A DNA stretch of 64,000 nucleotides from Epinephelus fuscoguttatus. Taxonomy: Eukaryota; Chordata; Actinopteri; Perciformes; Serranidae. The stretch lies in contig NC_064754.1 in the NCBI RefSeq assembly GCF_011397635.1, forward strand, positions 28,748,543 through 28,812,542, in the 5' to 3' direction. This document shows, piece by piece, positions 9,401-48,539 of this stretch. The notes beneath the pieces are model-generated. The model was not told the origin of the DNA. It searched no databases and saw nothing but the letters and a program-made list of their open reading frames with translations. The position numbers and the translations under genes are program-made. The stretch's first letter is position 1. Each line of letters begins with the position of its first letter.

Positions 9401-12400
9401 CTGTGGTTGTTTTCTTATGATAAGTCTTTTTATCTTATAGTATCGAGGCGCACTCGAAGAAAGAGAAATGTCCCTATCATTGTGGAACCAGAAGAAGTAA
9501 ACTCCAAAACTGTCCGCCGTGCTGCTGGTAAGACAAGAAGTACAGCTGGGTATCGAGCAGCTGTTCATTGATTGTCGTTAATTGCATTTTTTTTGTGGGG
9601 GTTTCTTCATCAGTGGATCAGCTTTAAATATATGTCTTCTATATATGTCTTCTGAGTCCGAGCTCTGATCTGACTTATTGGAGGCAAAATGCACATGCAA
9701 ACTTATGTTTCAGGGGGATGATGAGCAGAATTAAGAAAGACATTTCCCAACAAATCAGTGGTACTTAAAAGTATATCATGCAGGATTATCGGTTACTGGT
9801 TGTAAACATACTCGCCGGTGAAACTTAAATCCAACCCAACATTTACTCACCCTCGCCCCCTATTTTTTCAGCACTGTGTCATAGATGCCTGCTGCTTACA
9901 GTCTGGCACCTGGGGCCTCATTTATAAAACTAAATGTTTGCGTACATATAAATGAGGAAATGTATATGCTAATATCGAGTTTATATATATATATATATAT
10001 ATATACAGTACAGGCCAAAAGTTTGGACACACCTTCTCATTCAATGCGTTTTCTTTATTTTCATGACTATTTACATTGTAGATTCTCACTGAAGGCATCA
10101 AAACTATGAATGAACACATGTGGAGTTATGTACTTAACAAAAAAAGGTGAAATAACTGAAAACATGTTTTATATTCTAGTTTCTTCAAAATAGCCACCCT
10201 TTGCTCTGATTACTGCTTTGCACACTCTTGGCATTCTCTCCATGAGCTTCAAGAGGTAGTCACCTGAAATGGTTTTCCAACAGTCTTGAAGGAGTTCCCA
10301 GAGGTGTTTAGCACTTGTTGGCCCCTTTGCCTTCACTCTGCGGTCCAGCTCACCCCAAACCATCTCCATTGGGTTCAGGTCCGGTGACTGTGGAGGCCAG
10401 GTCATCTGCCGCAGCACTCCATCACTCTCCTTCTTGGTCAAATAGCCCTTACACAGCCTGGAGGTGTGTTTGGGGTCATTGTCCTGTTGAAAAATAAATG
10501 ATCGTCCAACTAAACGCAAACCGGATGGGATGGCATGTCGCTGCAGGATGCTGTGGTAGCCATGCTGGTTCAGTGTGCCTTCAATTTTGAATAAATCCCC
10601 AACAGTGTCACCAGCAAAACACCCCACACCATCACACCTCCTCCTCCATGCTTCACAGTGGGAACCAGGCATGTGGAATCCATCCGTTCACCTTTTCTGC
10701 GTCTCACAAAGACACGGCGGTTGGAACCAAAGATCTCAAATTTGGACTCATCAGACCAAAGCACAGGTTTCCACTGGTCTAATGTCCATTCCTTGTGTTT
10801 CTTGGCCCAAACAAATCTCTTCTGCTTGTTGCCTCTCCTTAGCAGTGGTTTCCTAGCAGCTATTTGACCATGAAGGCCTGATTCGCGCAGTCTCCTCTTA
10901 ACAGTTGTTCTAGAGATGGGTCTGCTAGAACTCTGTGTGGCATTCATCTGGTCTCTGATCTGAGCTGCTGTTAACTTGTGATTTCTGAGGCTGGTGACTG
11001 GATGAACTTATCCTCAGAAGCAGAGGTGACTCTTGGTCTTCCTTTCCTGGGTCGGTCCTCATGTGTGCCAGTTTCGTTGTAGCGCTTGATGGTTTTTGCG
11101 ACTCCACTTGGGGACACATTTAAAGTTTTTGCAATTTTCCGGACTGACTGACCTTCATTTCTTAAAGTAATGATGGCCACTCGTTTTTCTTTAGTTGGCT
11201 GATTGGTTCTTGCCATAATATGAATTTTAACAGTTGTCCAATAGGGCTGTCGGCTGTGTATTAACCTGACTTCTGCACAACACAACTGATGGTCCCAACC
11301 CCATTGATAAAGCAAGAAATTCCACTAATTAACCCTGATAAGCCACACCTGTGAAGTGGAAACCATTTCAGGTGACTACCTCTTGAAGCTCATGGAGAGA
11401 ATGCCAAGAGTGTGCAAAGCAGTAATCAGAGCAAAGGGTGGCTATTTTGAAGAAACTAGAATATAAAACATGTTTTCAGTTATTTCACCTTTTTCTGTTA
11501 AGTACATAACTCCACATGTGTTCATTCATAGTTTTGATGCCTTCAGTGAGAATCTACAATGTAAATAGTCATGAAAATAAAGAAAACGCATTGAATGAGA
11601 AGGTGTGTCCAAACTTTTGGCCTGTACTGTATATGTATATATAAATATTAAAATATTAATATTAAACAGAGAAATACAACCGTACACTCTTTGGATTCAA
11701 GTCTCTCTCACTGCACTACGCCAGGCTTATTAGTCCTTCAGTTAGTTGGTTAGTAAGTCCATTGTTCAACAATCACCAACTCTGGCTTGGTTGAAATAAA
11801 CCATAATTCACCGAGTTAGATGTGAAATAAGCTGTTTTCCCTGTGGTCTCTCTCGCACCAGCCTTTCCAGTGTGAGGTGTAATAAAAAGATGAGCGTCTG
11901 TATTTTTGACGGTTTTGAAAATTACACCATCGGGATTTTAAATGCCTTGGTATGCCGTAATACTGTGATACTACCCAAGCCTACTGAGGGCTGTGGGGGC
12001 ACATGACCATAAACGTCTCCAACACAGAAAATAAAAATAATCCAAGCAGACAGTCTTTGCAGAAAAATACAGCTTCAAAACCTTCTAGCAGGTTGCAAAT
12101 GATGATTTAGAGGGAATTACATCTGTATGAGTCTATATATTGTTTTTTTTGTTTTAGAAAAATCCTGTAAAATACACCATTAAAAATTCTGAATCCCAAT
12201 TTTGAACCTGTTCTCGATACCCAGCCCTTATTTATATAATATCACTTTTATGTTTTAGACTAAAGCAAGATATTGATTTTTTCTTTTATCAGCAAAGCGA
12301 CCTTACAGAAGAAGGAAAGATACCAAACAATCTGCTGAAGGAGGAGGAGACAACACAGGTGTTTCTGCTGGTAAGAGCAAATAAAATGGTCCACAGGAGC

Positions 12401-15400
12401 GCATAACCAGTGTGGCTGCAGCTATTGCTCGGCAAAATTCTTAGCCATGATCATTGGATTATCAGAGTAAGGAAAGGGTGGCTGTGTTTGAATTATCATA
12501 AGATGTCTTAGGCCATGTTTCAAAGTTAACTGGTGATGTAAAAATACAGCTTCACAGGACCTCCTGTGCTGTGGCTTCCTGCAGTTAAATAAATGTGATG
12601 CAGTGATTTAGAGCAGTACATACATTGTTGACAGGAGCTATGATTCTAATGTTCACCTGCAGATAAGGACAGATGTTGGACTTTTTCTAATGTTATCCCA
12701 TATACTTGTTAACACAGAGAAGACAAATTACAGAACAAGTACAAGCAGTGTTGATGATGAGCATCCAAATGCAGAGCAGCTGCAGTTCCAGTCCAACCTG
12801 CTTGGCTTAATAGCAGCAGCAGTTAAGTCATGCAGATATGCTCATGTTCACCATCTATGGGTGAGAAAAGTGATTGAAAGATGTCATAGACGTTGTTTAA
12901 AATAACAGGGAAATATTTAAAGTTGTTTTTAAAATTAAATTAAAAAAAAATATTTATCCCTTGGATAGTCATACAATCTTCTCAGTTTGAACTAAAAACT
13001 CACATATACAGAAAGAAAAAAGCAGCTGTGAAAATAAATAAACCGCAGGTGTAACACACACTGCCTGCAGGTGGTGACATCAACATGTCCACATCTAAAC
13101 CGCTGCTGCCATTTCCTTCCTTTCCTATATGTGACAGGGTTAGTGTGTGTAGTGTTGGTGTTACCATGAACAGACCAACCAGGGCTTTTGAAGCCAGTTT
13201 GACATAGTGGCCAAACCGTGGTATTACAACTTCATGACCATCACGTGATGCCATTAGGGTCAAAAGAGTTGAAAGCGACATCTATAAATCTGTGGATACA
13301 TTTTTTGGCATCACAACCCCTGGAAAATGACTTGATTCACTATCAGGATTTGATCCATCTGGTCCGATAACATTTTGAAAGTCTAGAAGAGCTGCATTTT
13401 ATCTTCATTCAAGTTAGGGTGGGACTAAACCAGAAGTTAGCTGCTCAGCTGCCATAATTCTCCAGTGATCTTGCTCTATGGCCCCAGCAGTGCAGAAACA
13501 AAGTGGAAGATCAACGGAATTTTACACACAGAAGTCAAATTTTTAGGCTTCACGCACCACTGGGCAACTTTAATAGGAATGTACGGGGCCACACCTCATT
13601 AAACAGACCGATCTGCATCTTGTTCAATGTGAGGGAGTGCGTCTAAGTTTTTGATTGGATTACGAGTCAGTTTCATTAAGTGTTGAGCGCCGAACAGAAC
13701 AGAACAGAACAAGGTTTTTGTAACAAACAAATTAGGACTAATAACAGAAGAATGTGGTTGGTCTGTAATGGGTTGGGATAAATCTCCAAACTCATTTTCT
13801 AAGCATTAAATAGCTTTGCTTTCCCACACAGGGAAGAAGCGCCCTGGCAGAAAGATGATTCGTGTTCCAATAGAAATACCTCCTGAGCTCCTGAAGAAGC
13901 CCAAAGAGAAGATGGAGTACCACTGCTCAGTGTGTGGCAAAGAGTTCCCTCACGCCTACAAACTTGAGAGGCACGAGCTGATCCACACAGGAGAGAAACC
14001 CTACTGCTGCTCCATCTGTGGTCGAGGTTTCAACCAAAAGGGGAATCTCAAAACGCACTACAAAGTCCACTTAGGTGAGAGCTGTAACATCACAACTGAA
14101 TCATTACAGTTATCTCTAAGAATATTTGCCATTGTTGTCAGTTTATATATGTAATGTAAATTTACACAACAAATTCAGATTTTTTTTATTTAACATTACT
14201 GAAGATTCTGTTCCAAATAGCAAACAAGTTATCTTCTGTTTGGTATTTTGTATGGATGGCCTGTATTATTTTGTATCCAGGAGTGCCTTTATCCAAAACT
14301 TTGAGTCAGTATTTACAATAAACATCCCATGAACATCAATGATTCATCAGTCTCTGAGGCCCTAAATCAAACCTCATGTTGTCAGCTGAATATTGACATT
14401 TTTCCTGCTGCATCATTGTACACAGAGCAACACAGGATAACCAGCCTGGCAGTCTACGAAGTTTTTCAATCTCGTCTTGTCTCCAAACTTACAGTGCCCT
14501 CCAAAAGTATTGGAACAGTGAGTCCAATTCGTTTACTTTTGTTGTAGACTGAAAACATTTGGGTTTGACATCAAAAGATGAATATGAGACAAGAGATCAA
14601 CATTTCAGCTTTTATTTCCAGGTATTTACATCTGCATCTGATACACAACTTAGAAGATAGCATTATTTGTAATGGAACACAAAATTTTTAGGTGAGCAAA
14701 AGTATTGGAACATATAAACTTAAAATAGATTAAATTTAATGAGACTTAATATTTAGTTGCAAATCCTTTGCTTTCAATAACTGCATCAAGCCTGTGACCC
14801 ATTGACATCACCAAACTTTTGCATTCTTCTTTTGTGATGCTTTTCCAGGCTTTCACCACAGCCTCTTTCAGTTGTTGTTTGTTTTGGGGGGTTACTCCCT
14901 TCAGTCTCCTCTTCAGCAGGTAAAATGCATGCTCTATTGGGTTTAAGTCTGGAGACTGACTTGGCCAGTCTAAAACCTTCCACTTCTTGCCCCTGATGAA
15001 CTCCTTTGTTGTTTTGGCAGTGTGTTTTGGGTCGTTATCTTGCTGCATGATGAAGGATCTCCCAATCAGTTTGGTTGCATCTTTCTTTAAATTAGCAGAC
15101 AAAATGTTTCTGTAGACTTCTGAGTTCATTTTGCTGCTGCCATCATGTGTTACATCATCAATGAAGATGAAAGAGCCTGTCCCAGAAGAAGCCATGCAAG
15201 CCCAAGCCATGACATTACCTCCACCGTGTTTCACAGATGAGCTTGTATGTTTGGGATCATGAGCAGATCCTTTCTTTCTCCAAACTTTCACCTTTCCGTC
15301 ACTTTGGAAAAAGTTAATCTTTGTCTCATCAGTCCATAAAACTTTTTCCCAGAATTTTTGAGGCTCATCTCTGTACCTTTTGCCAAATTCCAGCCTGGCC

Positions 15401-18326
15401 TTCCTATTCTTCTTGCTAATGAGTGGTTTGCATCTTCTGGTGTAGCTTCTGTACTTTTGTTCATGAAGTCTTGTGCGAACAGTAGATTGTGATACCTTCA
15501 CTCCTGCCCTCTGGAGGTTGTTGCTGATGTCACTAACAGTTGTTTTAGGGTCTTTCTTTACAGCTCTCACAATGTTTCTGTCATCAACTGCTGATGTTTT
15601 CCTTGGTCTACCTGTTCGACGTCTGTTGCTTAGTACACTAGTGGTTTCTTTCTTCTTCAGGACATTCCAAATGGTTGTACTGGCTATGGCCAATGTTTGT
15701 GCAATGGCTCTGATTGATTGTCCATCTTCTCTCAGATTCACAATTGCTTCTTTTTCACCCATAGACAGCTCTCTGGCTTTCATGTTGGTTCCACCTCTAA
15801 ATGCAGTCTGCACAGGCAAAATCTATCGTACCCAATCTGAAACTGAGCTCAGACATTCAGTGCTATTTATTGTTTGAATAATCAGTGTAACTGGGAGACA
15901 CCTGGGCAACAAAACACACCTGTCAGTGACATGTTCCAATACTTTTGCCCTCATGAAAAATGGGTGGGTTCAAACAAAAGGTGCTATCTTCTAAGTTGTG
16001 TATCAGATCCAGATGTAAATACCTGGAAATAAAAGCTGAAATGTTGATCTCTTGTCCCATATTCATCTTTTGATGTCAAACCCAAATATTTTCAGTCTAC
16101 AACAAAAATAAAGGAATTGGCCTCACTGGCCTCCAATACTTTTGGAGGGCACTGTAACTGTTAATGTTAAGACACACCAAACCTACATCAAAAAAGTGGT
16201 TGAGACGAAGGCTGAATGCCTTTGCACACTGACTCCATTTTTGGATGTGTTTTTTGTAAACCGTCATCTGAAAAAAATCGTTACACACAGAAACCGTGCA
16301 CACTGATTCCGATTCTTTTAATTGTTGTATTCGATGCGAAAATTTGCAAAACATGACAAAATGAAAAGTACACATTTCCTCCATGCCTCTCTCTGCTGGA
16401 GTTACCTATCTGGCTGTCATCACTGCCTCCCTGTCTTTTATTTGGCACCACAGCTGCAAGAAAGGGCGGAGGTGTCCCTCCTTTCTGTCCGCCAGATTAT
16501 CATTATCATCCACCTGAATGTTACTGTCTGACCTGTTAAACGTGAGCTATTTGAGTTATGAAAGGATACTGTGCACCCCGTTCCTCTGTCTTGTCGCAAA
16601 TGTGCACAATGCCGCCACATTTTCTTCACCGATTCTTGGTCAAACATCTCCGAAGGCTTCTGATGATGCAAAAACCCAGGAAATTGAACCTGTTCCAAAA
16701 CTTTTTATGATGGCCGAAAGTTTCGGACTCTGTGGAAACGTGATTGACACAGCGTGAGGTTGTATTTATTTTTAGACGTGTGACAATTTCGGATGAAAAA
16801 CTCGACTCAGTGTGCAAAGGCATTGACTGTTGCGTCACCTGTGTCATGGCCAAAAAGTTGCACATGAACACACCACAAAGACCACAGCCAGTGGCCAACT
16901 AGCACATATATACTGTGCCTGCATGAGAGGAAGCAACTCTCCATACCAGCAGGTGGCGGTAGTCTGTATTCGTCATTAAATACGGGAAAAAGGAAGACCG
17001 ACAGGATGCACTGAAGACGCTAGTTAGCCAAATAGCACATTAACACAGTCGGATGTTTAAAGAACAAAGGATAGTTCCCGAGTGCGAGCAAATAATAACA
17101 CAATTTCTCCTAAAGAGTTCATTAGCTAAAAAAACAATCTTATCACTTAGCTGTTTGTTTGCTTTCCTCACTTCCATTTCTCTTCACATGCACTGAGTTG
17201 AATTGCCAATCAGATTGCCTACAGCACGTAACACGTGACTTAAACTAGGGCGACAGGCGCTCGCCAACAGCTCGATATTGACCAACAGTTTACCGTCCAT
17301 TTGGTGTGCTCGGGCCCTCAGGATGATTGAAAAGGAAGGCAGAGCAATGTATATTATATTTTAAGAATAGGCCCAAGACTGGAAACTTTTGGGAGAAAAA
17401 TCTGGGAAATGCAGAATTGATTTTAGTACAGTAATGTCTACCTGGCTCATTGTAAGCCAGAAGTGAAGTAAGACTAAGTCCTTAACAGTGCAAAGATTGT
17501 TATACTTGAAGAGTAAAACATGTATTTGTCATTTTGTGAAGGTCGTAAGGGTGCTGTGGATTTTGACGATGAGGTGAACCCCATAGCATCAGAACTCTCC
17601 GAATACTTGAAGTCTCTGCCGGGGGAGTCCAGGATCAGATCATCCCTCCGTTGCCTGGAATGTGGAAAAGAATGTGAGAGTCACTCAGCTTTACAAGCAC
17701 ATCATATCACGACACACACAGAAACAGCTGGTGAACCAGACGCAGTCGAGCACAGCGCATCGCAGCTTCTCTTCTGCCGCCGCTGTGGCATTCAGTTCAA
17801 CGAGAAAGAAAAGCTGGAAGAACATATGAAAACCCACATCAAGGAGAAGCCCTACTCCTGTCCCGACTGTGGCAAGAAGTTCATCAACGAGAGCTACATC
17901 CAAGTTCACCAGCGCATCCACACTGGGGAGAAACCATTCCTCTGCTCCCAGTGCGGCAGAGGCTTCCACACGGCTTCCTCACTCAAGCTGCATGAGATGC
18001 AGCACTCCGGGGAGAGGCCCTTCGCATGCACCATCTGTGGGAAGACGTTTCGGATAAACTCGTACCTAACAGCACATTACCAGACCCACATCAAAGACAG
18101 ACCTTTCATTTGTAGTGTCTGTGGGAAAGGCTACTCCAGAGCTGAGGAACTGAAGGTGCACCACAGGCTTCACACAGGAGAGAGACCCTATGAGTGTGGA
18201 GAGTGTGGGAAGAGCTTCATTTACCGCCAGGGTCTGCGGCAGCATCAGCGCACACATGCTGGAAGACGCATCGGGCCAACCAGACAGCTCGGTAGACCGA
18301 AGCAACAGGCCAGGCTGGACATCTAA
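3438..18326 (+). CDS. ZNF gene 1: multi-exon C2H2 zinc-finger protein
   Basis: Predicted nuclear DNA-binding protein. Coding exons, all with AG/GT borders and matching phase: 3438-3612, 3722-4188, 6669-6876, 7287-7339, 8806-8971, 9059-9151, 9270-9344, 9441-9527, 12293-12370, 13832-14074, 17542-18326. Together they give 2430 nt, 809 residues plus stop; the true start lies upstream, or translation begins at the ATG at 6711. The N-terminal half is acidic: an IIKEEEEG motif, a run of 15 Glu, then GGLINSDGE as in ZNF gene 5. Five small phase-1 segments each start with a basic cluster ([38 protein letters not shown]). Exon 13832 holds two C2H2 fingers; the last exon holds seven and ends in a QLGRPKQQ tail. 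Two Tc1 elements sit in introns. The fingers are certain, while the joining of the early exons is inferred. Confidence 0.78.
5056..5610. mobile_element. Non-autonomous DNA element with about 75 bp terminal inverted repeats
   Basis: The left end (GGTAAGACCATTGTGATGAC and on) reappears in inverted form at the right end (GTCATCGGGATGGTCTTACC). The match runs through the TGTATCAGTCTGGACTCG block, about 75 bp with scattered mismatches. The interior has no transposase. A MITE inside a ZNF gene 1 intron is the simplest reading; superfamily not assigned. Confidence 0.6.
6016..6051. repeat. Perfect 14 bp inverted repeat (hairpin)
   Basis: AAGTTTCAGATGGA (6016-6029) is followed by an 8-base loop and its exact complement TCCATCTGAAACTT (6038-6051). 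It lies in an intron of ZNF gene 1, and no gene or protein-binding site is obvious. Confidence 0.7.
8320..8565 (+). mobile_element. LINE fragment (reverse transcriptase C-terminal region)
   Basis: Conceptual translation gives the familiar [25 protein letters not shown] and ITYKALHN blocks found near the C-terminus of L2/CR1-type LINE reverse transcriptases. It is a short truncated remnant in an intron of ZNF gene 1, upstream of exon 8806-8971. Confidence 0.65.
9978..10005. repeat. (AT)n microsatellite at Tc1 insertion site
   Basis: A run of about 12 AT units ends at the TA dinucleotide that is the left target site of the Tc1 element starting at 10006. A few TA-rich bases follow the right end as well. 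Confidence 0.8.
10006..11629 (-). mobile_element. Tc1/mariner transposon, degenerate copy with long inverted repeats
   Basis: The element begins CAGTACAGGCCAAAAGTTTG and ends with the inverted counterpart, flanked by TA on both sides. The inverted repeats are unusually long, about 270 bp (10006-10278 and 11358-11629), and nearly identical. The right arm therefore repeats the last roughly 40 codons of the transposase (containing [15 protein letters not shown]). Between them the minus strand carries a Tc1 transposase: the N-terminal HTH and GRPR hook, a middle part with [13 protein letters not shown], and a C-terminal part with QQDNDPKH and [11 protein letters not shown]. These parts lie in three frames, so this copy has at least two frameshifts and is not functional. 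It lies in the intron between exons 9441-9527 and 12293-12370 of ZNF gene 1. Confidence 0.93.
10169..11235 (-). pseudogene. Frameshifted Tc1 transposase
   Basis: Coding remnants run on the minus strand from the [12 protein letters not shown] start region to the stop at 10169. The DNA-binding part, the first catalytic Asp region (SDESKFEIF) and the second Asp/Glu region ([17 protein letters not shown]) are all present. The frame changes around 10950 and again around 10600. The peptide is otherwise well preserved, so the insertion is probably fairly recent. The extreme C-terminus lies inside the terminal inverted repeat. Confidence 0.85.
11640..12292. other. Intronic stretch without recognised genes
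   Basis: Non-coding sequence between the Tc1 element and exon 12293-12370 of ZNF gene 1. Fragments with repeat-like words occur (CTCTCGCACCAGCCTTTCC and GTATGCCGTAATACTGTGAT), but no element ends were found. Confidence 0.45.
12371..13831. other. Intron of ZNF gene 1
   Basis: A possible cryptic exon starts at 12718 after a good CACAG acceptor, but its best donor leaves a phase that does not fit the next exon. The main splice 12370 to 13832 is in phase without it. The rest (12900-13800) is non-coding, and an accidental minus-strand frame at 13000-13281 shows no domain. Confidence 0.45.
14492..16154 (-). mobile_element. Tc1/mariner transposon, apparently complete
   Basis: It is flanked by TA (14490-14491 and 16155-16156). 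Ends begin CAGTGCCCTCCAAAAGTATT, and the inverted repeats extend about 170 bp (14492-14663 and 15983-16154) with few mismatches. The single long minus-strand frame inside encodes an uninterrupted Tc1 transposase. The element lies in the last large intron of ZNF gene 1, between the two-finger exon and the seven-finger exon, in antisense orientation to the host gene. Confidence 0.95.
14746..15819 (-). CDS. Tc1-like transposase, intact frame
   Basis: Cut-and-paste transposase of 357 codons. An internal Met at residue 13 ([12 protein letters not shown]) is the more usual Tc1 start, giving 345 residues. In order: paired-like helix-turn-helix region (about 13-130) with a GRPRK AT-hook-like motif at 70-74; then the catalytic core with Asp164 (LWTDE), Asp261 (QQDNDPKH) and Glu296 (DLNPIE). 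The Asp261-Glu296 spacing of 34 residues is the DD34E signature of Tc1. A glycine-rich [10 protein letters not shown] segment lies near 197-206. No stop or frameshift interrupts the frame. Whether the protein is active cannot be told from sequence alone. Confidence 0.93.
   Translation of the reverse strand: MPVQTAFRGGTNMKARELSMGEKEAIVNLREDGQSIRAIAQTLAIASTTIWNVLKKKETTSVLSNRRRTGRPRKTSAVDDRNIVRAVKKDPKTTVSDISNNLQRAGVKVSQSTVRTRLHEQKYRSYTRRCKPLISKKNRKARLEFGKRYRDEPQKFWEKVLWTDETKINFFQSDGKVKVWRKKGSAHDPKHTSSSVKHGGGNVMAWACMASSGTGSFIFIDDVTHDGSSKMNSEVYRNILSANLKKDATKLIGRSFIMQQDNDPKHTAKTTKEFIRGKKWKVLDWPSQSPDLNPIEHAFYLLKRRLKGVTPQNKQQLKEAVVKAWKSITKEECKSLVMSMGHRLDAVIESKGFATKY
16205..16835. repeat. Foldback/MITE-like segment with 21 bp inverted arms
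   Basis: AATGCCTTTGCACACTGACTC at 16215-16235 is matched in inverted orientation, with one mismatch, at 16804-16824. Weaker complementarity continues inward (GGATG blocks and TTTTT tracts). The segment sits directly right of the intact Tc1 copy in the same intron. It has no transposase. Confidence 0.5.
16946..16959 (+). promoter_or_regulatory. CTCF-like motif
   Basis: CCAGCAGGTGGCGG fits the CTCF core consensus CCASYAGRKGGCRS at every position. It lies in an intron of ZNF gene 1. Fish repeats can carry similar words, so binding is not implied. Confidence 0.45.
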
Positions 18327-21653: not shown

Positions 21654-22788
21654 CTGTATATGACAAAAAATACTTAAGACATCAGAAAGTATTCATTTAA
21701 TAATTTCAATTGTTTATTTCTAGTTGTAGAAATGTTGAATATGCATATGACTTTTTTGTTAACAAAAAAAAACAAGGGATGATGGGGTAACCTTTTTCTT
21801 AGGCATATACAGCAAATGGCACCATTTTTGATTTAATGAGAAATCATCTTTTAACACAAGCATATTTCTAAGGTGACAGTCTCTCTCATCAGGGCCCATT
21901 CTCCACCCAACATGTTACTAGAGGGCCCTTCTCTCTAAAGGCCCTGCTTTAAGTTATATATAGTGTCCTTGCTGACAGTTAAGAGCAAGCCGGTAACTCC
22001 GAACCACCTTTACAATCAAAACTGAGGTAGGATGTTTCACAACAGTCAGTTTTTATTTTGTACTTACTTATATTTTATCATAAGTGTCATTTATCTACAG
22101 AGCTGTAACAACTGTATATTAGATGACTGACTAAAGTGTCTATTTTTAACTCTAACTGTTAAGGTGCACTTGTAAAAAACTGTGCAAGAATGCTCAGCAC
22201 AGTTGAAAATGTCTGATGCAAAGAAATACAACAGTTAGCTAACATTATGGAGCTTCTTACCTTGAAGCACAAACAGCAGCTTGAGTTGGAAAATATAACC
22301 AAAAGTATCCTGATTAAAATCTAGCTGTCACCACCTTTGCAATTTAAAACCAGATGTACTTTGATTCTTGACTGTAGCAGTTTCAGTACATCAGATTTGG
22401 GTTTTACAGATTTCTGCTGTATACAGTACAAAGTCATAAAAATTACTAGTGCTTTAAAATGTTTTCACCATCTGTTTAGTGTGACCAGTAGGCAAAATTT
22501 CAGCTACACTTTATAATCACCTCCTGGCTGCAATTATCAATATGTTTATGTTTGACAGTGACACACATGTTGCCTCCTGGACCAATATTTGTCCAGGAAC
22601 CAGGTCCTAGTCCCTCCTACACGCTTGGTACAACCATACAGGCATAGAGCTACACTGTTTGAAGCCCTTCACCCCGCAGAACATCAAACATTGACAGAGC
22701 TGACTTTTGACCTTTGAGGTGTATAACAGAGGAATAGTACATGTAACAAGATACAACTGAGTAAAATAAAATCAAAACACTAAGATTT
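21654..22788. other. Gene-poor stretch downstream of the THAP gene
   Basis: No exon or mobile element end was recognised. The sequence is AT-rich with a few repeat-like phrases. On the minus strand it is the 3' flank of the THAP/transposase gene. Confidence 0.45.
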
Positions 22789-22940: not shown

Positions 22941-25900
22941 TTACCGGCCTCTCTCATACCGGTATGGCAAGTCTTTGGGGAGGGGGATTTTCTTTAACTC
23001 TTCAACAAACGGCGCAGGGTCCACAAGTACCTCCTCGAAGACGAGCCTCATCAATTCATTCAGGTAATCTGTAAAATATTACATTTAAATTCAGGACTTT
23101 TCTGAATCCACCTTCCTTGTTCATGTTGAAAGTGTGGCCACAATTATTTCAATTTGCTTTCATTGTATTGCTTTGTAATGAAAATATTTGTACTTACTGT
23201 ATGTAGTGTCTGTTTTTACAGGCTTTAAAGTGCATTCGCCCGTCTCGGAGGACACGGCTTCGCTGACAGCTTGTCCTGCAGGTGCTTGTTCATGGTTCAC
23301 ATTTTCATTGTGGTGCATGACTGCTAGGTACAACCTACAATAACAGAGTGGTGACAATGAATGACCTGTAAGTTAATTTTGTCTTAAGGGCTTATTGGCT
23401 ACTAATCAGTAACTTTGTTATAAAGCAAGGCAAGTTTATGAATATTTATAGCACCATTCCTACACGAGGCAATTCAAAGTGATTTACAGGGGCATAAAAA
23501 TACCTTAAGAAAACATTAAAACAGCATTCACACATTTAAGGACAATCAAACAAACAAATAAATAGTTGCAGGTCAAAGAAAAAGTTAGATTTTTGAAAAG
23601 CCACAGGGAACAATAATGTTTTACGCCCTGATTTAAACGAGTTACCAGTTTCAGCAGACCTCAGGAGCTTGTTCCACAGGTGGGGAGCGTAGAATCTTAA
23701 AGCTCCTTCACCTTGCTTGGTTTTGTTCCTGAAAATGCTGAGTAAACCTGTCCCAGATGGCCTAAAGGGTCTGGGTGCTTCTTAGTATACACGTAAACCA
23801 GAAATGTATTTAGGCCTGAGACTATTCGGTGCTGTATGGACTACTAAAAGGATTTTAAAATCTATCCTTTGACATGCAGAAGCCAGTGAAGTGATTCAAG
23901 GACTGGTGTGAAGTGCTCCACTGTCTAGGTGTTAGTGCAGACTCTGACAGCAGCATTCAGGATGAGTTGCAGCTGTCTGATTTTTTACAACATCCTATGA
24001 AGATATTTTGACACGGCTGCCTAATGCTTGATTTTAATTGGTCAATTATGGCATTCTGCAGTCTATTATTTATGAATGGCCTACCGTTTCTATGGACATA
24101 GTTTTGAATCAATATTGTGTGTGAAATTATTGATTTCATTAGTAAGTAGCTGAGTAATAAGTGGGATCATGTACACTGTTGGGGTTTTACTACAGTGACC
24201 TGCTTGCTGTACATTATCTCTTACTTACAGAATCCATTAATTACCTGCACAGCAATCCCATGAAAGAGTAGATCACATTCTCAGGTAAGAAACGTAGGAT
24301 CAAATTGTGGAAGGCCTTCAGCAATGAACTCTGGTCATGGTGGCTCAGCTTCCTCACATCCTTGAGAACTCTCTTGTTGTTAAGGATTTGTTCCACTCTC
24401 TGGAGTGCCACTGACCCTTGAGTAATATTACAAAAGCATTTTGTTAAACAGCAGCCCATCTAAACAGTCAATATACACCAATATATTTGCATTACAATAG
24501 AGATATTTGAAGTGATGTTCAGGGTTTTGCTATTATGAAAGGAAAAAACAAATTAATTTTCTATTTAATATTATGAAGGCACATCTTGTTTACAAACCTG
24601 GTTGGAACCATTTCTTAGGATCCTTTGACACTCTGTCAGGATGTTCACATTTCGGGAAGATGGGGTCTTCATGCACGTGTACATTTTGAATGTGGTTGAC
24701 CAGTGACTTCCACTTAGCTACCTTCTCAGACCCTGATGTCGAAGAGGTCGCACTCCAGTAGAAGTGGTTTTTCATGCTGCTCAGCCATTTCTTCAACACC
24801 TCACAGTCCTTGCTTTGTGCAAGTCTTTCTAGTGTCGTGGATAAACCTTAATGAAAGTAGACATGCAAGAAATTAATATTCAAGACACAGTTTGATGACG
24901 ACCTGTTGCAGTGACAAATTGCACAGAATGCACAGAGCATTTACTTTTCTCAATGTGCCACACGCCGTAGAGCTGTTTGATGTTGCGCTCCTTCAGTAAC
25001 TTCTGAACTTGTGGATGTTGGTCGGTTACAACGTATTCCACCGCCAACCCTTTTGACTTCAGAAGATCTAGGCTTCGTTTCAGTCCCTCCCTCCCTATCC
25101 GGTAACAACCACCTACTTCATCGCTCTGGTGGTTGGTGGGAACACAATTGCAAAGATACAAATGTGAAGCATGTTTCAACATTTTGCAAGTTTAAAAAAA
25201 AAAATCCTAAAAGTGTAACACACCATAACAAGCTGCAGATCCATAATGGTGTTGCTCTCCAGGTGCGTCAAAGTGTAGCTGCCGTACTTTGCCGAGTGTC
25301 CTAAGGAAAACATAATAAGGTTGCAAGGCTTATCAACACAAACAGAATCGATAAGCTAGATGCTCTTTAACATTTTTTTGTCAAGAGTTTTGAATTACCT
25401 GGCGAGTCTGCTTGTAAATCTCCACCAACTGCAACCTTCCCCTTCTGTTGTAGCTGCTGAAAAAGATTCTGCTGATCCGTCTTCCATTTGTGGACAATTG
25501 CAGGCTCCAGGAAACTCCTTGCATGCCTCCTGTAGGTGTCATATGGGAAAATCTGGAACTGCATGGCCTTGCATATCTATGAATACATGAAAAAAAGGAA
25601 AGGGAAGTTGTAGAAAAGTTCCACTGATTGTAGTTTTCATATGCAGGGAATGGAAACAGCAGCACCTTTGCCAGTTGGAAGAAAGATGCACCAGTGAAAT
25701 ATGTGGCTGCCGATAACTGGAGGTTGCCAACAGGCGTACTTCCAACAATGGGCTGGCTCTGCCACTGTCTGGAGTAATTACAGCTTCGGCAGAGCTGAGT
25801 GAATGCCACATAAGTACCAATTCGTCGTCGCTGGACATCACACTTTGTCATGCATATTGGACAGGTGTCAAACAGCTCTCTGAGGCAGCTTTCAAATACA

Positions 25901-28561
25901 AGGTACTTTGTATCACCGTACCTTGGCCTTGACTCAAACCTAACATGACAACACAAAAACAACAAGACATTTTTGCTTTAGCTTTCAAACATTTTTTTCC
26001 ATCTCTGCTGATAACTCATAGCTACATATAGCCAAAATATAAAACTTACGACATTTTAGATTTCTCTGTAACATCAGAGCTGCCAGGGCCATACGTTGAT
26101 TCATGAGGCTCTTCATGAGGCTGAGCTTGGAGCTCTGTATTAGTGTCTCCCACTTCCACTTCCTCCTCCTCCTCCTCCAACTCCAGACGAGGTCTCTTGT
26201 TTGGTCTGAAGCCTGGAGCCCTTGTGGGTGTTGAAGATGGTAGGAAATCTGGGAAACTGGAAGTGGATTTGGTGACAGCACTGAGAGAAGACACCGTTGT
26301 CTGGGTGGCTACGAATGAAAGAAAAAAGTCAAAAGGTCATGAGAATGGGAGCCTGAAATATGAAATCCATTAGCTTTTAGTGGACTGCTAGGTGCATTGT
26401 ATTTCCTATAGTCCATATAACAGTATTTCAATATCAATTCCCAAACACAAAACCACAAATAATGCCTGTGTTGTATACCTTTGCTTCTCACATGCTGCTC
26501 CTTCAGTGTGCCCCAGGACAGCTGTGTGGCAACCGTCTTCTGAGATGCTATAAACTGTGTGCTCACTGAGGCGGTGTTTTGAGGGCTAGTTTGGCATCCG
26601 ATATGATTGATTCTTATGGCAAAGGGGTCTTGGGCTAAGACGTCCTGCAGTGTGGCAAATGAAGTAGTTAAAACCAAGCTAGCATCAGATGAAAACAGTA
26701 AACATCTAAAACGCTTAACAGCACTGTCCACTGTAAAACCAGCAAACAACACTGTCACACTTAAACACACGTACACAAACCCACATGGTATCCGTATATT
26801 ATACATAAATACAGCCCCAGCTGTTTATCTCGGGACCAACTACACTGCTGTGAATAGTGAACGGCTTCCATGTAACAAATCCAAGTAAAAGGCATACTGT
26901 ACATCTAAGTTAGCCATCTTTTGCTGGGTTGGGTCTCGCTGACCTTTTACCTGCACTCCATTACTATGGAAGGAGATATAGGGATGCACCCATCTGATAC
27001 TGATATTGGATAGCAGGCCTATATGGACTCAGAAAGCTGGATTGGGTATCTGTGACAATGGGGCTGATCTATTCAGTTCTATGTTTATAGTTTCAGCTGC
27101 TATATTATATTGTGATTTAAATGTCTATGTAGCCTGAAGATTCAGAAAGAATTTTGATTCCTGTTTATTTTTCAAATGTTTAGTATTTATCAAGTGTGTT
27201 TGCATGTTTGTGACTGATATTTACCCCTGTTCTAATTTTACACAGTTATATTGTTTAGTACTTGAATTTTAACTCCTGTTTAAGTTTCAACCAATTTTTT
27301 GCTGCATTTAACAAGTTTACACTTGAATTGTATTTCCTGTTCATTTTTAAGATTTTCTAACAAGATGCTGGTGCACGATAAGTTATTTTAATAACAAATA
27401 ATTCAGAAAATTCTAGAGATGGGGAAAAAAAACTTGATACAGCATAGTGTCACAATATTTTTTGTGTGGCAATACTGTACAGTCACACAGTGCCAAGTAT
27501 TGATTTTTTTTAATGATATAAATGACTAATATTACAAATTAAACTTTAGGTTACCTACTTGAATAATAAAATCAATTGCTTTTTCAGTCCACTAGAAACA
27601 TTTTGATGCAAATAAAATGACTGAAGTGAGATTAACAGACTGGAAACTTTACCTCATTAGATATAACAGATATTGACAAAGTTTTCCTTCGGGAAAGAAA
27701 TCTACAGTTGAATGAAGGTGATAAATTGCAAAATGTCACGATATATTGTATTGCAATACTCAGCATAGTGCAGTATCGCAATAATGGTGCATCATGATAA
27801 TATCGTATTGTGGAGTCTCTGGTGATTCCCAAGAATATTCATACTAATGAATTTGTCACAATGTTTTACAAGCTTAGGAAAGCCGTGTGCAAATCAAGCC
27901 TGATGTCTCTCACATGTAAAGTGATCCCAGTCACTTAGGTTTTATTGATGTGTGGGATTGGTACTCGATATCGGCCGATACCCAGAGCCCAGATATGAGT
28001 ATCGGGATTGAAAAAAAATATCGGTATTATCAATTTTGCTCGCAAGTTAGTCAAACTGAAGTGGACAGCGACCTTAACTTTATACATGCACCTCAACACT
28101 GTAGGATGCCTACAGCCTCATAGCAAAACATTTCGACACAGTAACACTAGCTAACGGTAGTTCACTTAGCTGAGTCCTAATGTAACGTTACATCTTAAAA
28201 ACAACCAACACTCGGTAGCAGCTACATTGTTTGTTGTGAACATGAATCCACAGCTGGTACAGCATAACGTTACAGTACTTACGGGCTGTGGTTCTCCATC
28301 TTCAGATTTGACCACAGGCACAGTGGGAACAGCTCCTTCTTTGAGGAGCAACCTTGTAGAAAATCCAGATTTGTATGATTCCAGGTTCCGGAAGGAGTCC
28401 GGGGTAAAATGTCGGGAACACAACACAATATTGGAGTTGTACTGCTCAGGAATAGTGTTAAAAATGAATGTTAACCACTGCTTCCTTAGGGCTTCGTCGT
28501 TTGGAAGTCCACACAAAGAGTGGCCGCGTTCGCACCTAAAAAAACAGCGTCTTCTCGACAT
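22941..28561 (-). CDS. THAP-domain protein with Kolobok-like transposase body (spliced, intact frame)
   Basis: Minus-strand exons, all with canonical borders and matching phase: 28283-28561, 26479-26644, 26050-26308, 25666-25939, 25399-25567, 25224-25300, 24945-25125, 24598-24846, 24245-24416, 23198-23334, 22941-23068. They sum to 2091 nt, 696 residues plus stop. Residues 1-82 form a THAP DNA-binding domain with C6, C10, C48, H51, W29, F52 and AVPT. An acidic, proline-rich linker follows, then a CPxCxxxC zinc motif (261-268) and a transposase-like core with [10 protein letters not shown] (D376) and VTDQHPQ (D443). Relatives I recall have Glu in an LExFH motif; here it is LLKAFHN with Lys585. 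A host gene derived from a transposon (Kolobok superfamily as best judged) is likely: spliced, in frame, probably not catalytic. No inverted ends were seen beside it. Confidence 0.85.
23425..23990. repeat. Dispersed teleost repeat in an intron of the THAP gene
   Basis: It starts with CAAGGCAAGTTTATGAATAT and GCAATTCAAAGTGATTTACA, and runs through the phrases GGAGCTTGTTCCACAGGTG and AGCATTCAGGATGAGTTGCA. A similar opening occurs at 54358-54430. It lies between exons 23198-23334 and 24245-24416. Class not assigned. Confidence 0.55.
26645..28282. other. First intron of the THAP/transposase gene
   Basis: This 1.6 kb intron separates the THAP exon from the rest. It holds hAT-like end motifs (AGGGATGCACCCATCTGATA at about 26974) and a degenerate TATCGG-rich repeat at 27955-28035. 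No extra exon was needed or found. Confidence 0.5.
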
Positions 28562-36050: not shown

Positions 36051-37709
36051 TTAGTTTTCTCCGACAGGAGAGATGATCAGAGGTGCAGAGTTTCTATTAC
36101 CATAATGAGGACCAGGATAGAGGAATGGGAAGAGTTTCTCAGTGAAGGAGCAGCCAGTATATGTGTGGATAAGAGCTGCAGAATCTGTGTCATAAAAGGA
36201 GACCAGACCTTCATCATAATCCACAAACACTCCGACCTTCTGAGGATGAGACCTCAGAGAGAGAGTGACTGAAGGGCCAGCAGCAGCTTTGTACTCATTT
36301 CCATTTTTCAAACCTACAGTCCAGAAACCTTCTGCAGGGCCCAGTGTGATTTGGCCCTTCCTGTTGATAGACTCTTTGGCCACTCCAAAATACCATTCAG
36401 TCTTTCTTTTAACTTGAACCTCGTAGTAAAATTTTCCTGAAGAGAAATGCTGTTTTCCCAAAACACAGGCACTGAAAGAAAATCTCTCCGGATTGTCTGG
36501 AAGAATTTTCATTACCTTATCGTGGCGTACCTGTTTGCCATCATCAGAAAGGATGAGTTCAGCTTGTGCTGTATTAGGATCAAGAGTCACGTCCACTGCA
36601 TACTGCTGGACCCTCTTCAGCTCGGCTTCCAACACCTGCCTTATCTTTTTATTGAGTGCCTCCTCCAGCTGAGCTACAGCTCTCACCGCAGTCCCCTCAT
36701 ATGATGGATGGATACTGATCTCTGTCCAGTCCTTGGTGGGCGGTGGATGGTGGGTGTTTAGGGACTGGACACTCTGGAGAAGATGGAGGTGGTCTTCATG
36801 ATGTGACAACTGCTCCACCTCAGTGCTTCTCCTCATCAGCTCAGAGATTTCCTGTCCCAGCTCCTCGATGAAAGCTTCAGCCTGTTTCTGTGTCGCTCTG
36901 CGCTTCTCTTCTATAGTTTTGATGAGCTCATTCAGGTCTCTCTCAACAGACTCCTTCAGAGAAGTGAAGACCTGAACACCTTCCGCTTTCTCTTTGTCTG
37001 CGTCCTTCTCACTGAGCTCGACTGAGTTTTTGATCTCCTGAATTTTCTGTTGTCTCGTCTGGATCATCTGCTGAATTTCAGCCTCCAGCTTGGCCTTCTT
37101 TTCTTCATATTCCTCTTTCAGAGGAACAACGTCATGCATCTTGTGGTCTAACACAATGCAGAGGATGCAGACACCTGTCTGGTTGGTCTTACAGAACAGC
37201 TCCAGAGGCTTATCGTGCTTCGTACACATCCTGCCTTCCAGGTTCTGAACAGGGTCAATTAGCTGATGTCTTTTCAGACGTGAAGCTGTCAGATGAGGCT
37301 CCAGGTGAGTCTGACAGTAGGAGGCCAGACACACCAGGCAGGACTTCAGGGCTTTCAGTTTGGTTCCAGTGCAGACGTCACAGGGAACTTCTCCTGGTTT
37401 CGACTCTTCGACACTTTCAGCGCTCACTTGCTCTGAGCTGCTGCTGCTGCTGCTGGTTTTACTTTGAGCTGACTGTCTGAACTGAGCAACCATCTCAGAG
37501 ATGAAAGTGTTGACGTGCAGCTCAGGTCTGGTGGTGAAAACCTTTTTACACATCGGACACAGGCACTGGTCATTAGTGTTCCAGTGTGCATTGATGCAGT
37601 TTTTGCAGAAGTTGTGTCCACATGATGTGGTGACAGGATCAGTGAACACGTCCAGACAGATGGAGCACAGAAACTGATCTTCTGGCGGCAGATACTTTGC
37701 AGCAGCCAT
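36051..37709 (-). CDS. TRIM-family E3 ubiquitin ligase (RING, B-box, coiled coil, PRY-SPRY)
   Basis: Single-exon coding frame of 552 residues. The RING finger spans about 15-57 (CSICLDVF, SCGHNFC, CPMC). Two B-box-like zinc modules follow, at about 109-145 (PCDVCTGTKLKALKSCLVC) and about 163-200 (CTKHDKPLELFC, CILC, DHKMHD). A long coiled coil covers roughly 200-310 and the PRY-SPRY (B30.2) domain about 370-545 (VTLDPNTAQAELILSDD, GKFYYEVQV, WYFGVA). This is the arrangement of the large fish TRIM/finTRIM sets, which are cytosolic ubiquitin ligases often tied to antiviral defence. The start MAAAKYLPPEDQFLCSIC is typical. The gene is antisense to the flanking zinc-finger genes. Which TRIM it is cannot be told. 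Confidence 0.93.
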   Translation of the reverse strand: MAAAKYLPPEDQFLCSICLDVFTDPVTTSCGHNFCKNCINAHWNTNDQCLCPMCKKVFTTRPELHVNTFISEMVAQFRQSAQSKTSSSSSSSEQVSAESVEESKPGEVPCDVCTGTKLKALKSCLVCLASYCQTHLEPHLTASRLKRHQLIDPVQNLEGRMCTKHDKPLELFCKTNQTGVCILCIVLDHKMHDVVPLKEEYEEKKAKLEAEIQQMIQTRQQKIQEIKNSVELSEKDADKEKAEGVQVFTSLKESVERDLNELIKTIEEKRRATQKQAEAFIEELGQEISELMRRSTEVEQLSHHEDHLHLLQSVQSLNTHHPPPTKDWTEISIHPSYEGTAVRAVAQLEEALNKKIRQVLEAELKRVQQYAVDVTLDPNTAQAELILSDDGKQVRHDKVMKILPDNPERFSFSACVLGKQHFSSGKFYYEVQVKRKTEWYFGVAKESINRKGQITLGPAEGFWTVGLKNGNEYKAAAGPSVTLSLRSHPQKVGVFVDYDEGLVSFYDTDSAALIHTYTGCSFTEKLFPFLYPGPHYGNRNSAPLIISPVGEN

Positions 37710-39158
37710 ATCTACACAGGTAGTGTGACAGAAAAGAAAAACATTTTATTTAAAATACACATTTAATTATTTGTTTTAAAGGAAAGAAGTACGATTATGG
37801 TTTTTTTTTTTTAGTATAACACGATGTTTGTTAAAGTAGGCTGATCTTGAATAATAAGTGCTGTGAATTGCACCAAGCAACATTATGCAAGATTTGGTGC
37901 CCCTACAGATTCTGAGTGGTACCCCAATGTTGTGAATACATTACGCCTGCTGCATGGCAAACTGTTCAACCTGTCCTTACATAAGTTGAAGTGATTTCCG
38001 AACGCTAACAGGAAACCGACAACAGTGTGTACATCCCTGCTAATGTTATAATGTAAGATTGTGATGCAGGCTGTAACTTTATCAGTTTCATCCTTGTCTC
38101 ACAGAGTCTCATGGACAGCTGTGCACGTGCATTTGCTGACAAGCTGAACGATTTTGGAACCTGCAAATATTATGTCAGAAGCTTTAAAAAAAACAACGTA
38201 TATGCTTCATCACTCAACATCCTCTTGTATATTCCGAGCTAGTTTCTTTTTTTTTTTTTTTAATCCTAATTTCAAATCGTCGACATACATGGTGGCAAAA
38301 GAAAACATCAGAATCACACACATACAGATGAAGCACTGAAAAAACAAAATGAAAAGCAGCGCCAACTAACTGAGTTTGCTAGTGTCATAAAACGTTATGC
38401 TTTGGTGATCCAACCTGCTCAACACAGTTACTTACTGTATTGCAGGAACACACATTCAGGGTGCCGAGTGGGAATGACAGATGTGTACCATTGCAATGAT
38501 GTCAAAGCTGTTATTAAAACGTAAATTTCCAATTCTTTTTCTAAAGCTGTGCTCACTTGATGACAAACACTGTGTATTCCCTCTAGCTGATTCGCATTAC
38601 CAGCCTCCGAGTGGTTCAGGAAGCAGTACGTAGAAGGTGATAAGCAAACAGTGATAAAAGCAGGAAAGTAGGAGTGGAACAAAACTCTAAACCAGAGATT
38701 CAGTTAAAAGTTAGTCCTGAGAGCTGACAGAGAGGGGGACTGTTTAAAGTTATTAAAGTGGGCTACTGCATAATGGGCTAGTGCACAAACGGCCATAGTG
38801 GAACGTCCTGCCTGAGCAGAGCTGCAGTTTTATGTTAATCTTGGTTGTTTAAACTTAGGATGTCAGCTGTACTCACTGGTGTTTAGCAGCTGCTGTGTTG
38901 TTGACAAAGACCCGATTAACTTGGCCGTTTGGATTTTCTTTCAAAGGGAAACAGAGACTCCGACAAGCTTAAGTTTCATTTCTGGGGTGTGACACTGAGG
39001 CTCTCCTCTCTGATGTTGCTCTTCCTCTTACTGCAGCTTTGCTGGTTAGGTTTTGTTTCCCCTCTAACTCACATGGTTACTGGGAAGCACTACAATGTTC
39101 TTTGTGCTCTGTAACTTGACCATATAATCTAATAAATATGAGTCATCTGTTTATACAG
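37710..39158. other. 5' flank of TRIM gene and intergenic DNA
   Basis: The upstream part should hold a TRIM 5' untranslated exon and promoter, but no exon border is certain. No other gene is supported. Poly-T and poly-A tracts occur at 37801 and 38248. Confidence 0.4.
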
Positions 39159-40642: not shown

Positions 40643-42244
40643 GGGCAGGAGCACTTTAAGCAGAGCTGTCCAGTGGAGCAGCCCTCCTGGCCTCCTGGGA
40701 CCTCCTCTGTATCGCCACCCTCTGAGCTCGGCCTCACCACACCCCTCCCACATAACATCACATCGAAGAAAATGCACCTGAGCGACACGGGTGCAGAAGT
40801 AAATCACCATGAAGAACACAGACCTGAAACACAGGAGCAGGATCACAGCACAGCACCTACAGGTGAGTCTAACTGAAGTGCTATTGTTTTTTGTGAACAC
40901 ATACAAGTCATACAGATTTGTAATCTTGATACGCAATACTCAAGAACCCTACAGAACTTTTAGAACATTTCATGTACACCAACTTTTTGTTATTATTATT
41001 ATTATTATTTTTTAGAAGAAACTTTAATACCACCAGAACCTGAACACGGCAGCTCCCATGAACAGACTCAGAGAAATCTGTCTGAGGGGCCTCGCAGACT
41101 CAAGAAGAAGTACAACTGTCTGACCTGTGGGAGAGTCTTCTTTCACAACACTGCTCTGCAGCGACACCTTGTGATTCATGCGGGGAAAAGACCTTTCAAG
41201 TGCTTCATCTGTGCGAGAGGATTCACCCAGAGCGGAAACCTCAAAACACACATGAAAGTGCACAGAGGTCAGAGGCAACAAGATGCTCCTTTGTCTTTCT
41301 TTGTGAGCTTGGTCATGTGTTTTCTTACTTGGAAGCAGACCATTAGCAGGCTAGTTACCTTAGCCGCACAAGGGACAGATGTTCACACAGTTTATTCAAG
41401 CAATAAATTTGGATATTGACTCCTTTCTCACAACAATGTCCTCTTGTGTGGAGCACTTTTTGCTGTGACAGGCTTAATAAAAATGACGATGTGACACTGT
41501 CTAAAGCTTAAAATTTGTGTGGATTTATTTGCCTATGCAAGCAAATCCAAGGATTTCAGTGATTTTATTTTTATGAGTTGATTTTGCAGTAAAAAAGTGA
41601 CTATGAATGTCTTTGTCTTTACAGGAGAGTTGCCAAATTGGACATTAGTTCGAGAGAGCCCCCCCAAAGAATCTCATGTAACAGTTCATGTGTGTGGAGA
41701 ATGTGGCATGGACTTCCCTCAGAAGCAACAGCTGGAAGAACACCGCCAGAGTCACAAAAAGCCTTACGCCTGCCCTGACTGTGGCAAGACCTTCAAAACG
41801 GAATACTATTTCAAAATACATAAGCGCATTCACTCAGGAGAGTCACCTTTCCTCTGTACAGAGTGCGGTAAGAGCTGTGTCACAGCAGATTCGCTTAAAA
41901 AACACGAGCTGACTCACACTGGAGAAAGGAATTTCCACTGTGATCAGTGTGGGAAGGCGTTTTCACAATCTTCCCACCTCAACGTGCACCTCAAGACTCA
42001 CACTGGAGAGCGACCGCACCTCTGCTCAATCTGTGGTAAAAGTTACTCCAAAGCGTGCGATCTGAAAGTTCACCTGCGAGTTCACACCGGAGAGAAACCG
42101 TATACTTGTGACAAATGCGGGAAGTGCTTCTATTACTCTCAAGGTTATCGAGCGCATCTGAAGATTCACGACAAGAAGCCAAAGCCTCAAACAAAACCAC
42201 TGGGGAGACCAAAACAACAGCTGTCAGTGGCACATAATCAATAA
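40643..42244 (+). CDS. ZNF gene 3: C2H2 zinc-finger protein (eight fingers)
   Basis: Exons 40643-40862 (leader), 41016-41267 and 41625-42244. The leader is open in phase 0 from its acceptor; the first internal ATG is at 40772 (MHLSDTGAEVNHHEEHR), giving 320 residues from there. The second exon has two fingers, ending GNLKTHMKVHRG before a gtcaga donor. The last exon has six fingers, the first with a shortened linker (SHKKPY), and ends with KPLGRPKQQLSVAHNQ. It is predicted to bind DNA in the nucleus. It is a tandem paralogue of ZNF gene 4; the two last exons are the same length and about 97 percent identical. The 5' end is uncertain, since exon blocks at 39159-39966 may or may not belong. Confidence 0.82.
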
Positions 42245-47800: not shown

Positions 47801-48539
47801 TTGATATGAGTTAATTTTGCAGCAAAATATCAATGTTTTAAATGCTGGTGTGACTGGGCCTTAACAATACAGAACTGGCTGCAAATAAATAACTATGAAT
47901 ATCTTTGTTTTTCTTACAGGAGAGTTACCAAATTGGACATTAGTTCGAGAGAGTCCCCCTAAAGAATCTCATGTGACAGTTCATGTGTGTGGAGAATGTG
48001 GCATGGACTTCCCTCAGAAGCAACAGCTGGAAGAACACCGCCAGAGTCACAAAAAGCCTTACGCCTGCCCTGACTGTGGCAAGACCTTCAAAACGGAATA
48101 CTATTTCAAAATACATAAGCGCATTCACTCAGGAGAGTCACCTTTCCTCTGTACAGAGTGCGGTAAGAGCTGTGTCACAGCAGATTCGCTTAAAAAACAC
48201 GAGCTGACTCACACTGGAGAAAGGAATTTCCACTGTGATCAGTGTGGGAAGGCGTTTTCACAATCCTCCCACCTCAAGGTGCATCTCAAGACTCACACCG
48301 GAGAGCGACCTCACCTCTGCTCAATCTGTGGTAAAAGCTACTCCAAAGCATCTGTGCTGAAAGTTCACCTGCGAGTTCACACCGGAGAGAAACCGTATAC
48401 TTGTGACAAGTGTGGCAAGTGCTTTTATTACACTCAAGGTTATCGAGCGCATCTGAAGATTCACGACAAGAAGCCAAAGCCTCAAACAAAACCACTGGGG
48501 AGACCAAAACAACAGCTGTCAGTGGCACATAATCAATAA
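44818..48539 (+). CDS. ZNF gene 4: C2H2 zinc-finger protein, tandem copy of gene 3
   Basis: Candidate exons: 44797-44853 with an ATG at 44818 (MTMDKAPLLITQ, phase 0), leader 46055-46243, two-finger exon 46957-47223, six-finger exon 47920-48539. Compared with gene 3 the leader lacks 31 bp after the GTCC(A/C)(C/G)TGGAG phrase. The frame entering from 44818 therefore shifts and meets a stop. Translation can still begin at the ATG at 46153 (MHLSDTGAEVNHHEEHR), giving 325 residues. The fingers are all intact, and the tail is KPLGRPKQQLSVAHNQ. The two-finger exon is slightly longer than in gene 3 (an extra GAKQCQQ segment). Four residues differ in the last exon, two at DNA-reading positions of finger five. 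It may be a working gene with a shortened N-terminus. Confidence 0.8.
44894..45467. mobile_element. Non-autonomous hAT-like element with 8 bp target duplication
   Basis: Begins TAGTGATGGGC and ends with a rough inverted form (ACACTA preceded by CGAATGACACA). The flanks CTGGTCCA (44886-44893) and CTGGACCA (45468-45475) match at seven of eight positions. The interior is built of ATTCAGTTCAGT and TTCATTCA words and encodes nothing. It lies in an intron of ZNF gene 4. Confidence 0.6.

Follow-up and report, generated by a model that had tools for sequence, protein, structure and literature searches.

A probable host gene derived from a Kolobok transposase, beside relics of an apparent partner gene, in Epinephelus fuscoguttatus

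Introduction

Does a transposase gene that has kept its reading frame but lost catalytic residues serve its host, or does it belong to an element that died too recently to have decayed? The question is raised by a Kolobok-derived THAP gene in a 64,000-nt stretch of Epinephelus fuscoguttatus DNA (GCF_011397635.1, NC_064754.1, positions 28,748,543 to 28,812,542, forward strand), hereafter called the window; coordinates below are those of the window. A preliminary description, made from the letters alone, had proposed a domesticated host gene on the grounds of an intact frame across ten introns and a lost active-site residue. We compared the gene with its relatives in the same assembly (1.05 Gb in 26 contigs), and all copy comparisons were made within this one genome. 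We consider it probable that the gene was domesticated from a fish Kolobok DNA transposon of the Kol0 type; most tellingly, an apparently wrecked partner gene lies beside the intact one. As a candidate for transposase co-option in fish, the locus brings its own internal control: one of two apparently co-inserted genes is ruined and the other is intact. In the literature searched, no title or abstract opening reports that a Kolobok transposase gene has been domesticated in fish.

Gene model

The gene comprises eleven exons on the minus strand, from 28561 to about 22942, separated by ten GT-AG introns.

Exon 1, 28283 to 28561, minus strand: start codon and THAP domain (residues 7-81)
Exon 2, 26479 to 26644, minus strand: linker, with weak matches in some copies of the related families A-D described below
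Exon 3, 26050 to 26308, minus strand: linker with a basic and an acidic stretch
Exon 4, 25666 to 25939, minus strand: zinc-ribbon-like CPIC...C...CRSC
Exon 5, 25399 to 25576, minus strand: D379 of GGD...DSPG, the first catalytic Asp
Exon 6, 25224 to 25300, minus strand: core
Exon 7, 24945 to 25125, minus strand: D446 (TDQHPQ), the second catalytic Asp; the DxxH position reads GVWH
Exon 8, 24598 to 24846, minus strand: H2CH-type zinc finger
Exon 9, 24245 to 24416, minus strand: K588 (codon 24318-24316) in the catalytic Glu column
Exon 10, 23198 to 23334, minus strand: part of the spliced gene model
Exon 11, 22942 to 23068, minus strand: includes the stop

The eleven exons joined in phase across their GT-AG junctions, as had been claimed from the letters. 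The spliced frame held 699 codons plus a stop, rather than the 696 codons first counted; the lysine reported as Lys585 in LLKAFHN is present, its number having been three short, and is Lys588. An AATAAA lies on the minus strand at 22792, approximately 150 bases past the transposase stop. An incorrect gene model or a fault in the assembly could in principle mask a pseudogene, and the model is indeed computational; however, the GT-AG sites and phases all agree and, over exons 4-11, the majority of junctions are found again in copies from three further families, so that we regard an artefact of this kind as the least probable explanation of the locus.

Domains and catalytic residues

Pfam placed the THAP domain at residues 7-81 (E 2.9e-11) and gave a weak match to the Mutator-like transposase PF20700 at residues 258-366 (E 2.8e-6). 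The PDB yielded weak matches to THAP1, in its THAP domain (E 0.0086 and 0.14), along with chance matches, and a viral contig scan with 438 residues of the protein returned no match. The motifs named in the preliminary description (the THAP zinc signature, the CPxC module, GGD...DSPG and TDQHPQ) were all found. The THAP domain carries its C2CH ligands (C6, C10, C48 and H51), P20, W29, F52 and AVPT from residue 77, at the place of AVPTxx. The CPIC...C...CRSC module at 261-288 retains five of five cysteines (C261, C264, C268, C285 and C288), and the H2CH finger between DxxH and the Glu column is likewise kept (H523, H528, H530, C538 and H540). Both catalytic aspartates are present, D379 in GGD and D446 in TDQHPQ.

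The third catalytic position is occupied by K588. Of the 37 paralogues readable at its column, 36 have Glu, one has Gln and none has Lys, in agreement with the assignment first proposed. These counts combine two alignments, one of 16 other copies (15 Glu, 1 Gln) and one of further copies in which 21 of 22 were readable, all with Glu. Window gene rows, the doubled reads of C25, C9 and C5, and a misplaced low-score row (L016, E 0.15) were left out of the first; in the second, L057 stops short of the column, and L055 and L056 read alike. A second loss, which the preliminary description had not recorded, lies in the DxxH motif, where the protein reads GVWH: the Asp is replaced by G465 and H468 is kept. 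Among 19 readable copies, this column holds Asp in 16, Asn in one and off-frame reads in two (E_C19 and H_C9), C_C14 having no letters there. The protein thus lacks the complete Kolobok triad with C/DxxH, at K588 and at G465. The missing core residues are acids of the catalytic signature, whereas the tested zinc and DNA-binding parts are all kept.

We infer that catalysis has most likely been lost. Because the THAP domain and the zinc modules are kept, the protein is probably a sequence-specific DNA-binding protein, most likely either a transcription regulator or a competitor on the ends of related Kolobok elements. A domesticated protein could instead remain partly active in catalysis or strand nicking, a different residue serving in place of Glu, given that both catalytic aspartates are present and that the full DDE is retained in some domesticated XKol proteins (PMC6004289). 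However, Lys for the third acid together with Gly in DxxH would make catalysis unlikely and, by eye, the alignment offers no adjacent acidic residue in place of the lost Glu or the DxxH Asp; we therefore consider residual activity very improbable.

Copy number and related families

The window gene is single-copy. A DNA search with a repeat-free 1695-base core gave eight matches: the gene itself and seven others, 119-170 bases long and 73-78% identical. The repeat-free core was used because an intron-9 repeat had swamped an earlier whole-gene search, in which nearly all of at least 77 matches were to that repeat (40 of 3831 candidates scored). One locus, L069 (1860-2096; C8:41460.7k), holds a lone degenerate Kolobok exon 8 with 78% DNA identity over 170 bases and CEHPDR in common with the window gene, and may be what remains of a sister copy.

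A genome search with the protein core gave at least 110 exon matches, counting those of the window gene, and the best non-self matches among the 91 of 286 candidates scored had approximately 45-60% identity. Several of these loci belong to four families that moved recently in this genome. Family A (copies on C9, C1, C25, C4, C5 and C8) is mostly 92-98% identical, introns included, falling to 89% in parts of the copy on C8; family B (C17 and C21) is approximately 98% identical, family C (C8 and C14) approximately 95%, with pieces at 89-90%, and family D (C12 and C22) approximately 97%. The family B copy on C17 (L066, L021 and L017) is stop-free across 675 aligned codons and differs by approximately 2% from its C21 sister. 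The window protein is 54% identical to the family A copy on C9 over 458 core columns.

Transposon ends were found in these relatives. In family A, of which the C9 and C1 copies were examined on both flanks, the 5' ends read TTAA and then AGGGGACATATTATGCAAAA; the 3' end of the C1 copy reads the inverted AGGTGACATATTATGC and then TTAA, and no 3' end was found in the flank of the C9 copy. Family B starts with AGGTCCCATATTATGCAAAATG, preceded by TTAA in the C21 copy but not in the C17 copy. Beside the window gene, the best TTAA-anchored inverted pair scored 12/20, compared with 11-14 for the best of five control region pairs, neither the family A end nor its core occurred nearby above chance, and neither TTAA target duplications nor RR termini were detected. 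The preliminary description had named many near-identical copies with inverted ends and TTAA duplications as grounds against domestication; such copies exist for relatives at approximately 50% amino-acid identity, not for the window gene itself.

We compared junctions over exons 4-11, exons 1-3 matching as separate pieces in some copies. One copy was compared for each of families A, B and C, and its introns 4-10 match those of the window gene in position and phase: donors are GT in 7/7 of each, and acceptors are AG at the matching place in 6/7 (A), 7/7 (B) and 6/7 (C). None of these three copies has the exon 4 acceptor where extrapolation would put it, and intron 5 is missing from family D. 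Relatedness to elements with TTAA ends and the seven introns in common support the descent of the window gene from Kolobok. Because recently moved copies have these seven introns, the intron-rich structure is the transposon's own; we rejected intron richness as a sign of a host gene, as had originally been argued, and it is no argument for domestication in this family.

The same introns would also be expected if the gene were the relic of a recently dead, low-copy Kolobok family, its frame intact by chance or for want of time, with no host function, and Lys588 and Gly465 as early decay. The stop-free C17 copy is of just such a recently moved family, and the exon-8 fragment L069 hints at a former second copy of the window gene's own. 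However, no close copies are left, both lost core residues are catalytic-signature acids while all tested zinc ligands are kept, and 699 codons are intact although no ends are detected and the partner gene is wrecked. For these reasons we find a recently dead element, the chief rival to domestication, the less likely account.

Apparent relics of a KolX-like gene

Families A and B have, 3' of the transposase gene and in the opposite orientation, pieces of a second gene: HPGLEPVCLN in both families and CGNCEQMPTEPEN in family A. From its place and the P2X7 ballast motif, we tentatively take this gene to be KolX. Five fragments of it had no match in Pfam. Two pieces at the window locus, also missing from the preliminary description, resemble its middle exons.

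KolX-like exon relic 1, 22635 to 22719, plus strand: HTGIELHCLKPFTPQNIK at 22635-22688, then a frame change and a stop (22687-22719, weak match)
KolX-like exon relic 2, 22172 to 22240, plus strand: KNCARMLSTVENV, an in-frame stop and then CKEIQQL; match at 22172-22237; neighbouring exon

The best matches of the two middle exons among the six frames of the whole 64 kb were exactly these stretches, 22635-22688 and 22172-22237. They lie 0.3 and 0.7 kb past the transposase stop, and their strand and order are as in family A. It is on position, strand and order that their identification would rest. The simplest account would be that one insertion brought both genes, of which the second was ruined and the transposase stayed intact over 699 codons.

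Selection and age

We fitted an in-house codon model to 459 core codons of ten sequences, masking every stop codon as well as those stretches of A_C1, C_C8, E_C19 and F_C5 in which the frame had slipped; the deep nodes of the tree had support of only 46 and 55. The ratio of nonsynonymous to synonymous substitution rates (dN/dS, omega) was 0.215 on the window branch (0.135-0.387 in 44 time-limited bootstrap fits) and 0.141 in the background, and omega = 1 was rejected for the window branch (likelihood-ratio test, LRT, 21.9). The tips of young copies gave 0.56 in family A (LRT against 1, 3.2) and 1.66 in family B (LRT 0.25), three internal branches gave 0.09-0.14, and the single tips C_C8, D_C12 and F_C5 gave 0.14, 0.11 and 0.06, respectively.

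The age of the insertion was approached through a repeat in the gene.

LINE-like (long interspersed nuclear element) repeat, 23422 to 23982, minus strand: old and dispersed, inside intron 9; 23598-23982 used as a clock

This repeat differs by 17.7% from the majority of 20 copies, which were taken from the best matches of the whole-gene search. Forty-four of the differences are shared with its nearest sibling, L085; we therefore dropped the great age that 17.7% would have implied and used the lower private divergence of approximately 5.6% from L085. In simulated coding sequences with neutral divergence of 0.02, 0.05, 0.095 and 0.2, the mean number of stops was 1.8, 4.3, 7.7 and 13.8, and 17%, 1.6%, 0.05% and 0% of 2000 sequences stayed stop-free; these fractions are for substitutions alone, and indels would reduce them. 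That is, the intact frame exceeds chance if the gene is old.

Neighbourhood of the gene

The neighbours of the window gene are C2H2 zinc-finger and TRIM genes. A 564-codon open TRIM frame at 36051-37745 (minus strand) encodes RING, B-box, coiled coil and PRY/SPRY. Two very similar C2H2 zinc-finger frames, apparently a duplication, lie at 40964-42244 and 46917-48539 (plus strand), and further members of the cluster were noted at 13810, 17517, 32231, 33204, 52312 and 55387, of which those at 33204 and 52312 were run against Pfam. A Tc1-type transposase at 14746-15822 (minus strand) is open over 358 codons (HTH_Tnp_Tc3_2, E 4e-23; DDE_3, E 4.8e-12), and an apparent second one extends across several frames at 10169-11324 (DDE_3, E 1e-6 for 10172-10687). 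THAP domains are very numerous in the genome as a whole, with 1861 first-look candidates; all 150 of the 150 scored exceeded the Pfam cut-off.

Discussion

We favor domestication. The inserted element would have carried two genes, a THAP transposase gene rich in introns and, downstream on the opposite strand, a KolX-like gene; its ends and second gene would have decayed later, while the transposase gene presumably stayed intact under purifying selection. Its protein would have lost DNA cutting and joining through the changes of the catalytic Glu to Lys588 and of the DxxH Asp to Gly465, and kept the THAP C2CH, the zinc ribbon, the H2CH finger and the two catalytic aspartates. Of the original case for domestication, the lysine column has survived, and the single-copy state, the lack of TTAA-flanked ends and a purifying branch that may include transposon time have been added to it; the argument from introns has fallen. 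A benefit to the host, like DNA binding, is inferred.

Several points weigh against domestication. When the 1.5 kb zone was simulated 2000 times, neither relic score (35.5 and 37.7) was reached, but the largest maxima among 40 simulated 64 kb windows (39.5 and 44.0) exceeded them, and the simulation figures are optimistic in that the query segments were picked after the window matches had been seen. The first and last KolX-like exons (N- and C-terminal) were sought beside the gene and not found. The omega of the window branch did not differ significantly from the background (p 0.12), and may average transposon time and host-gene time. Moreover, the tip of the frame-broken copy E_C19 gave omega 0.233 with omega = 1 rejected (LRT 16.0). 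Because such a long, mostly-transposon branch gives an equal value, omega alone is no proof of domestication: it is blind to transposon versus host phase, which also fits a recently dead element, and this control slightly lowered the probability that we assign to domestication. The clock gives a lower bound of approximately 5.6%, at which some 1-2% of neutral sequences stay stop-free. The window gene deviates at 30/159 otherwise invariant columns, and families A-D at 3/132, 12/141, 19/148 and 22/151; the excess also fits some relaxation. Finally, the support is drawn from one genome and a computational gene model.

If the gene is indeed domesticated, a further and more speculative proposal can be made. 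The disarmed, fish-specific Kolobok transposase might act as a genome defence factor that binds the ends of its recently moved relatives and blocks their transposase. We hold this role to be doubtful at present; with these families present in one genome, self-control of this kind can be put to the test.

Comparison with known systems

Domestication of a transposase is a known kind of adoption, of which the window gene would be a further case rather than a novel phenomenon. Kol0 Kolobok elements target TTAA, have 5'-RR termini, and carry C/DxxH between the second D and E with a zinc finger between DxxH and E; their second protein is KolX (Kojima and Bao 2022, PMC9587614), a relative of the P2X7 ballast and of nanor. 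Families A and B fit the Kol0 features tested, and the window locus holds apparent second-gene relics; unlike Kol0, it has no detectable ends, its partner is broken, and its DxxH Asp and Glu are lost. P2X7 and nanor, in turn, are described as derived from KolX and not from a transposase.

Among fish, dDada is a domesticated Dada-U6 of Cyprinoidei for which orthologous loci and transcripts were shown (PMC8869645). It resembles the window gene in being transposase-derived, with damaged catalytic residues and a mutated DxxH; however, it belongs to the Dada superfamily, and the word THAP is absent from the paper. THAP9 is likewise a transposase-derived host gene with a THAP domain, but its origin is the P element and it is reported to be active (PMC5753468, PMC10027918).

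The closest likeness is to XKol, the nonrepetitive, domesticated Kolobok transposases of Xenopus (Hikosaka and Konishi 2018, PMC6004289). According to that paper, most have retained THAP and H2CH and lost the catalytic triad, dN/dS between two Xenopus species is below 1, and synteny was shown. The XKol coding sequences were gathered as the longest continuous open reading frames in frogs, whereas the window gene has ten introns and is from a fish. The residue table consulted has no DxxH entry. The third residue is Lys in Tr16, Lv5, Lv13 and Lv24 (DDK) and in Tr4 and Lv9 (DNK), and the authors propose DNA binding and competition with active transposases (PMC6004289). The window gene is like XKol in its THAP, H2CH and DDE core, in being nonrepetitive and, as in some XKol proteins, in the change of Glu to Lys.

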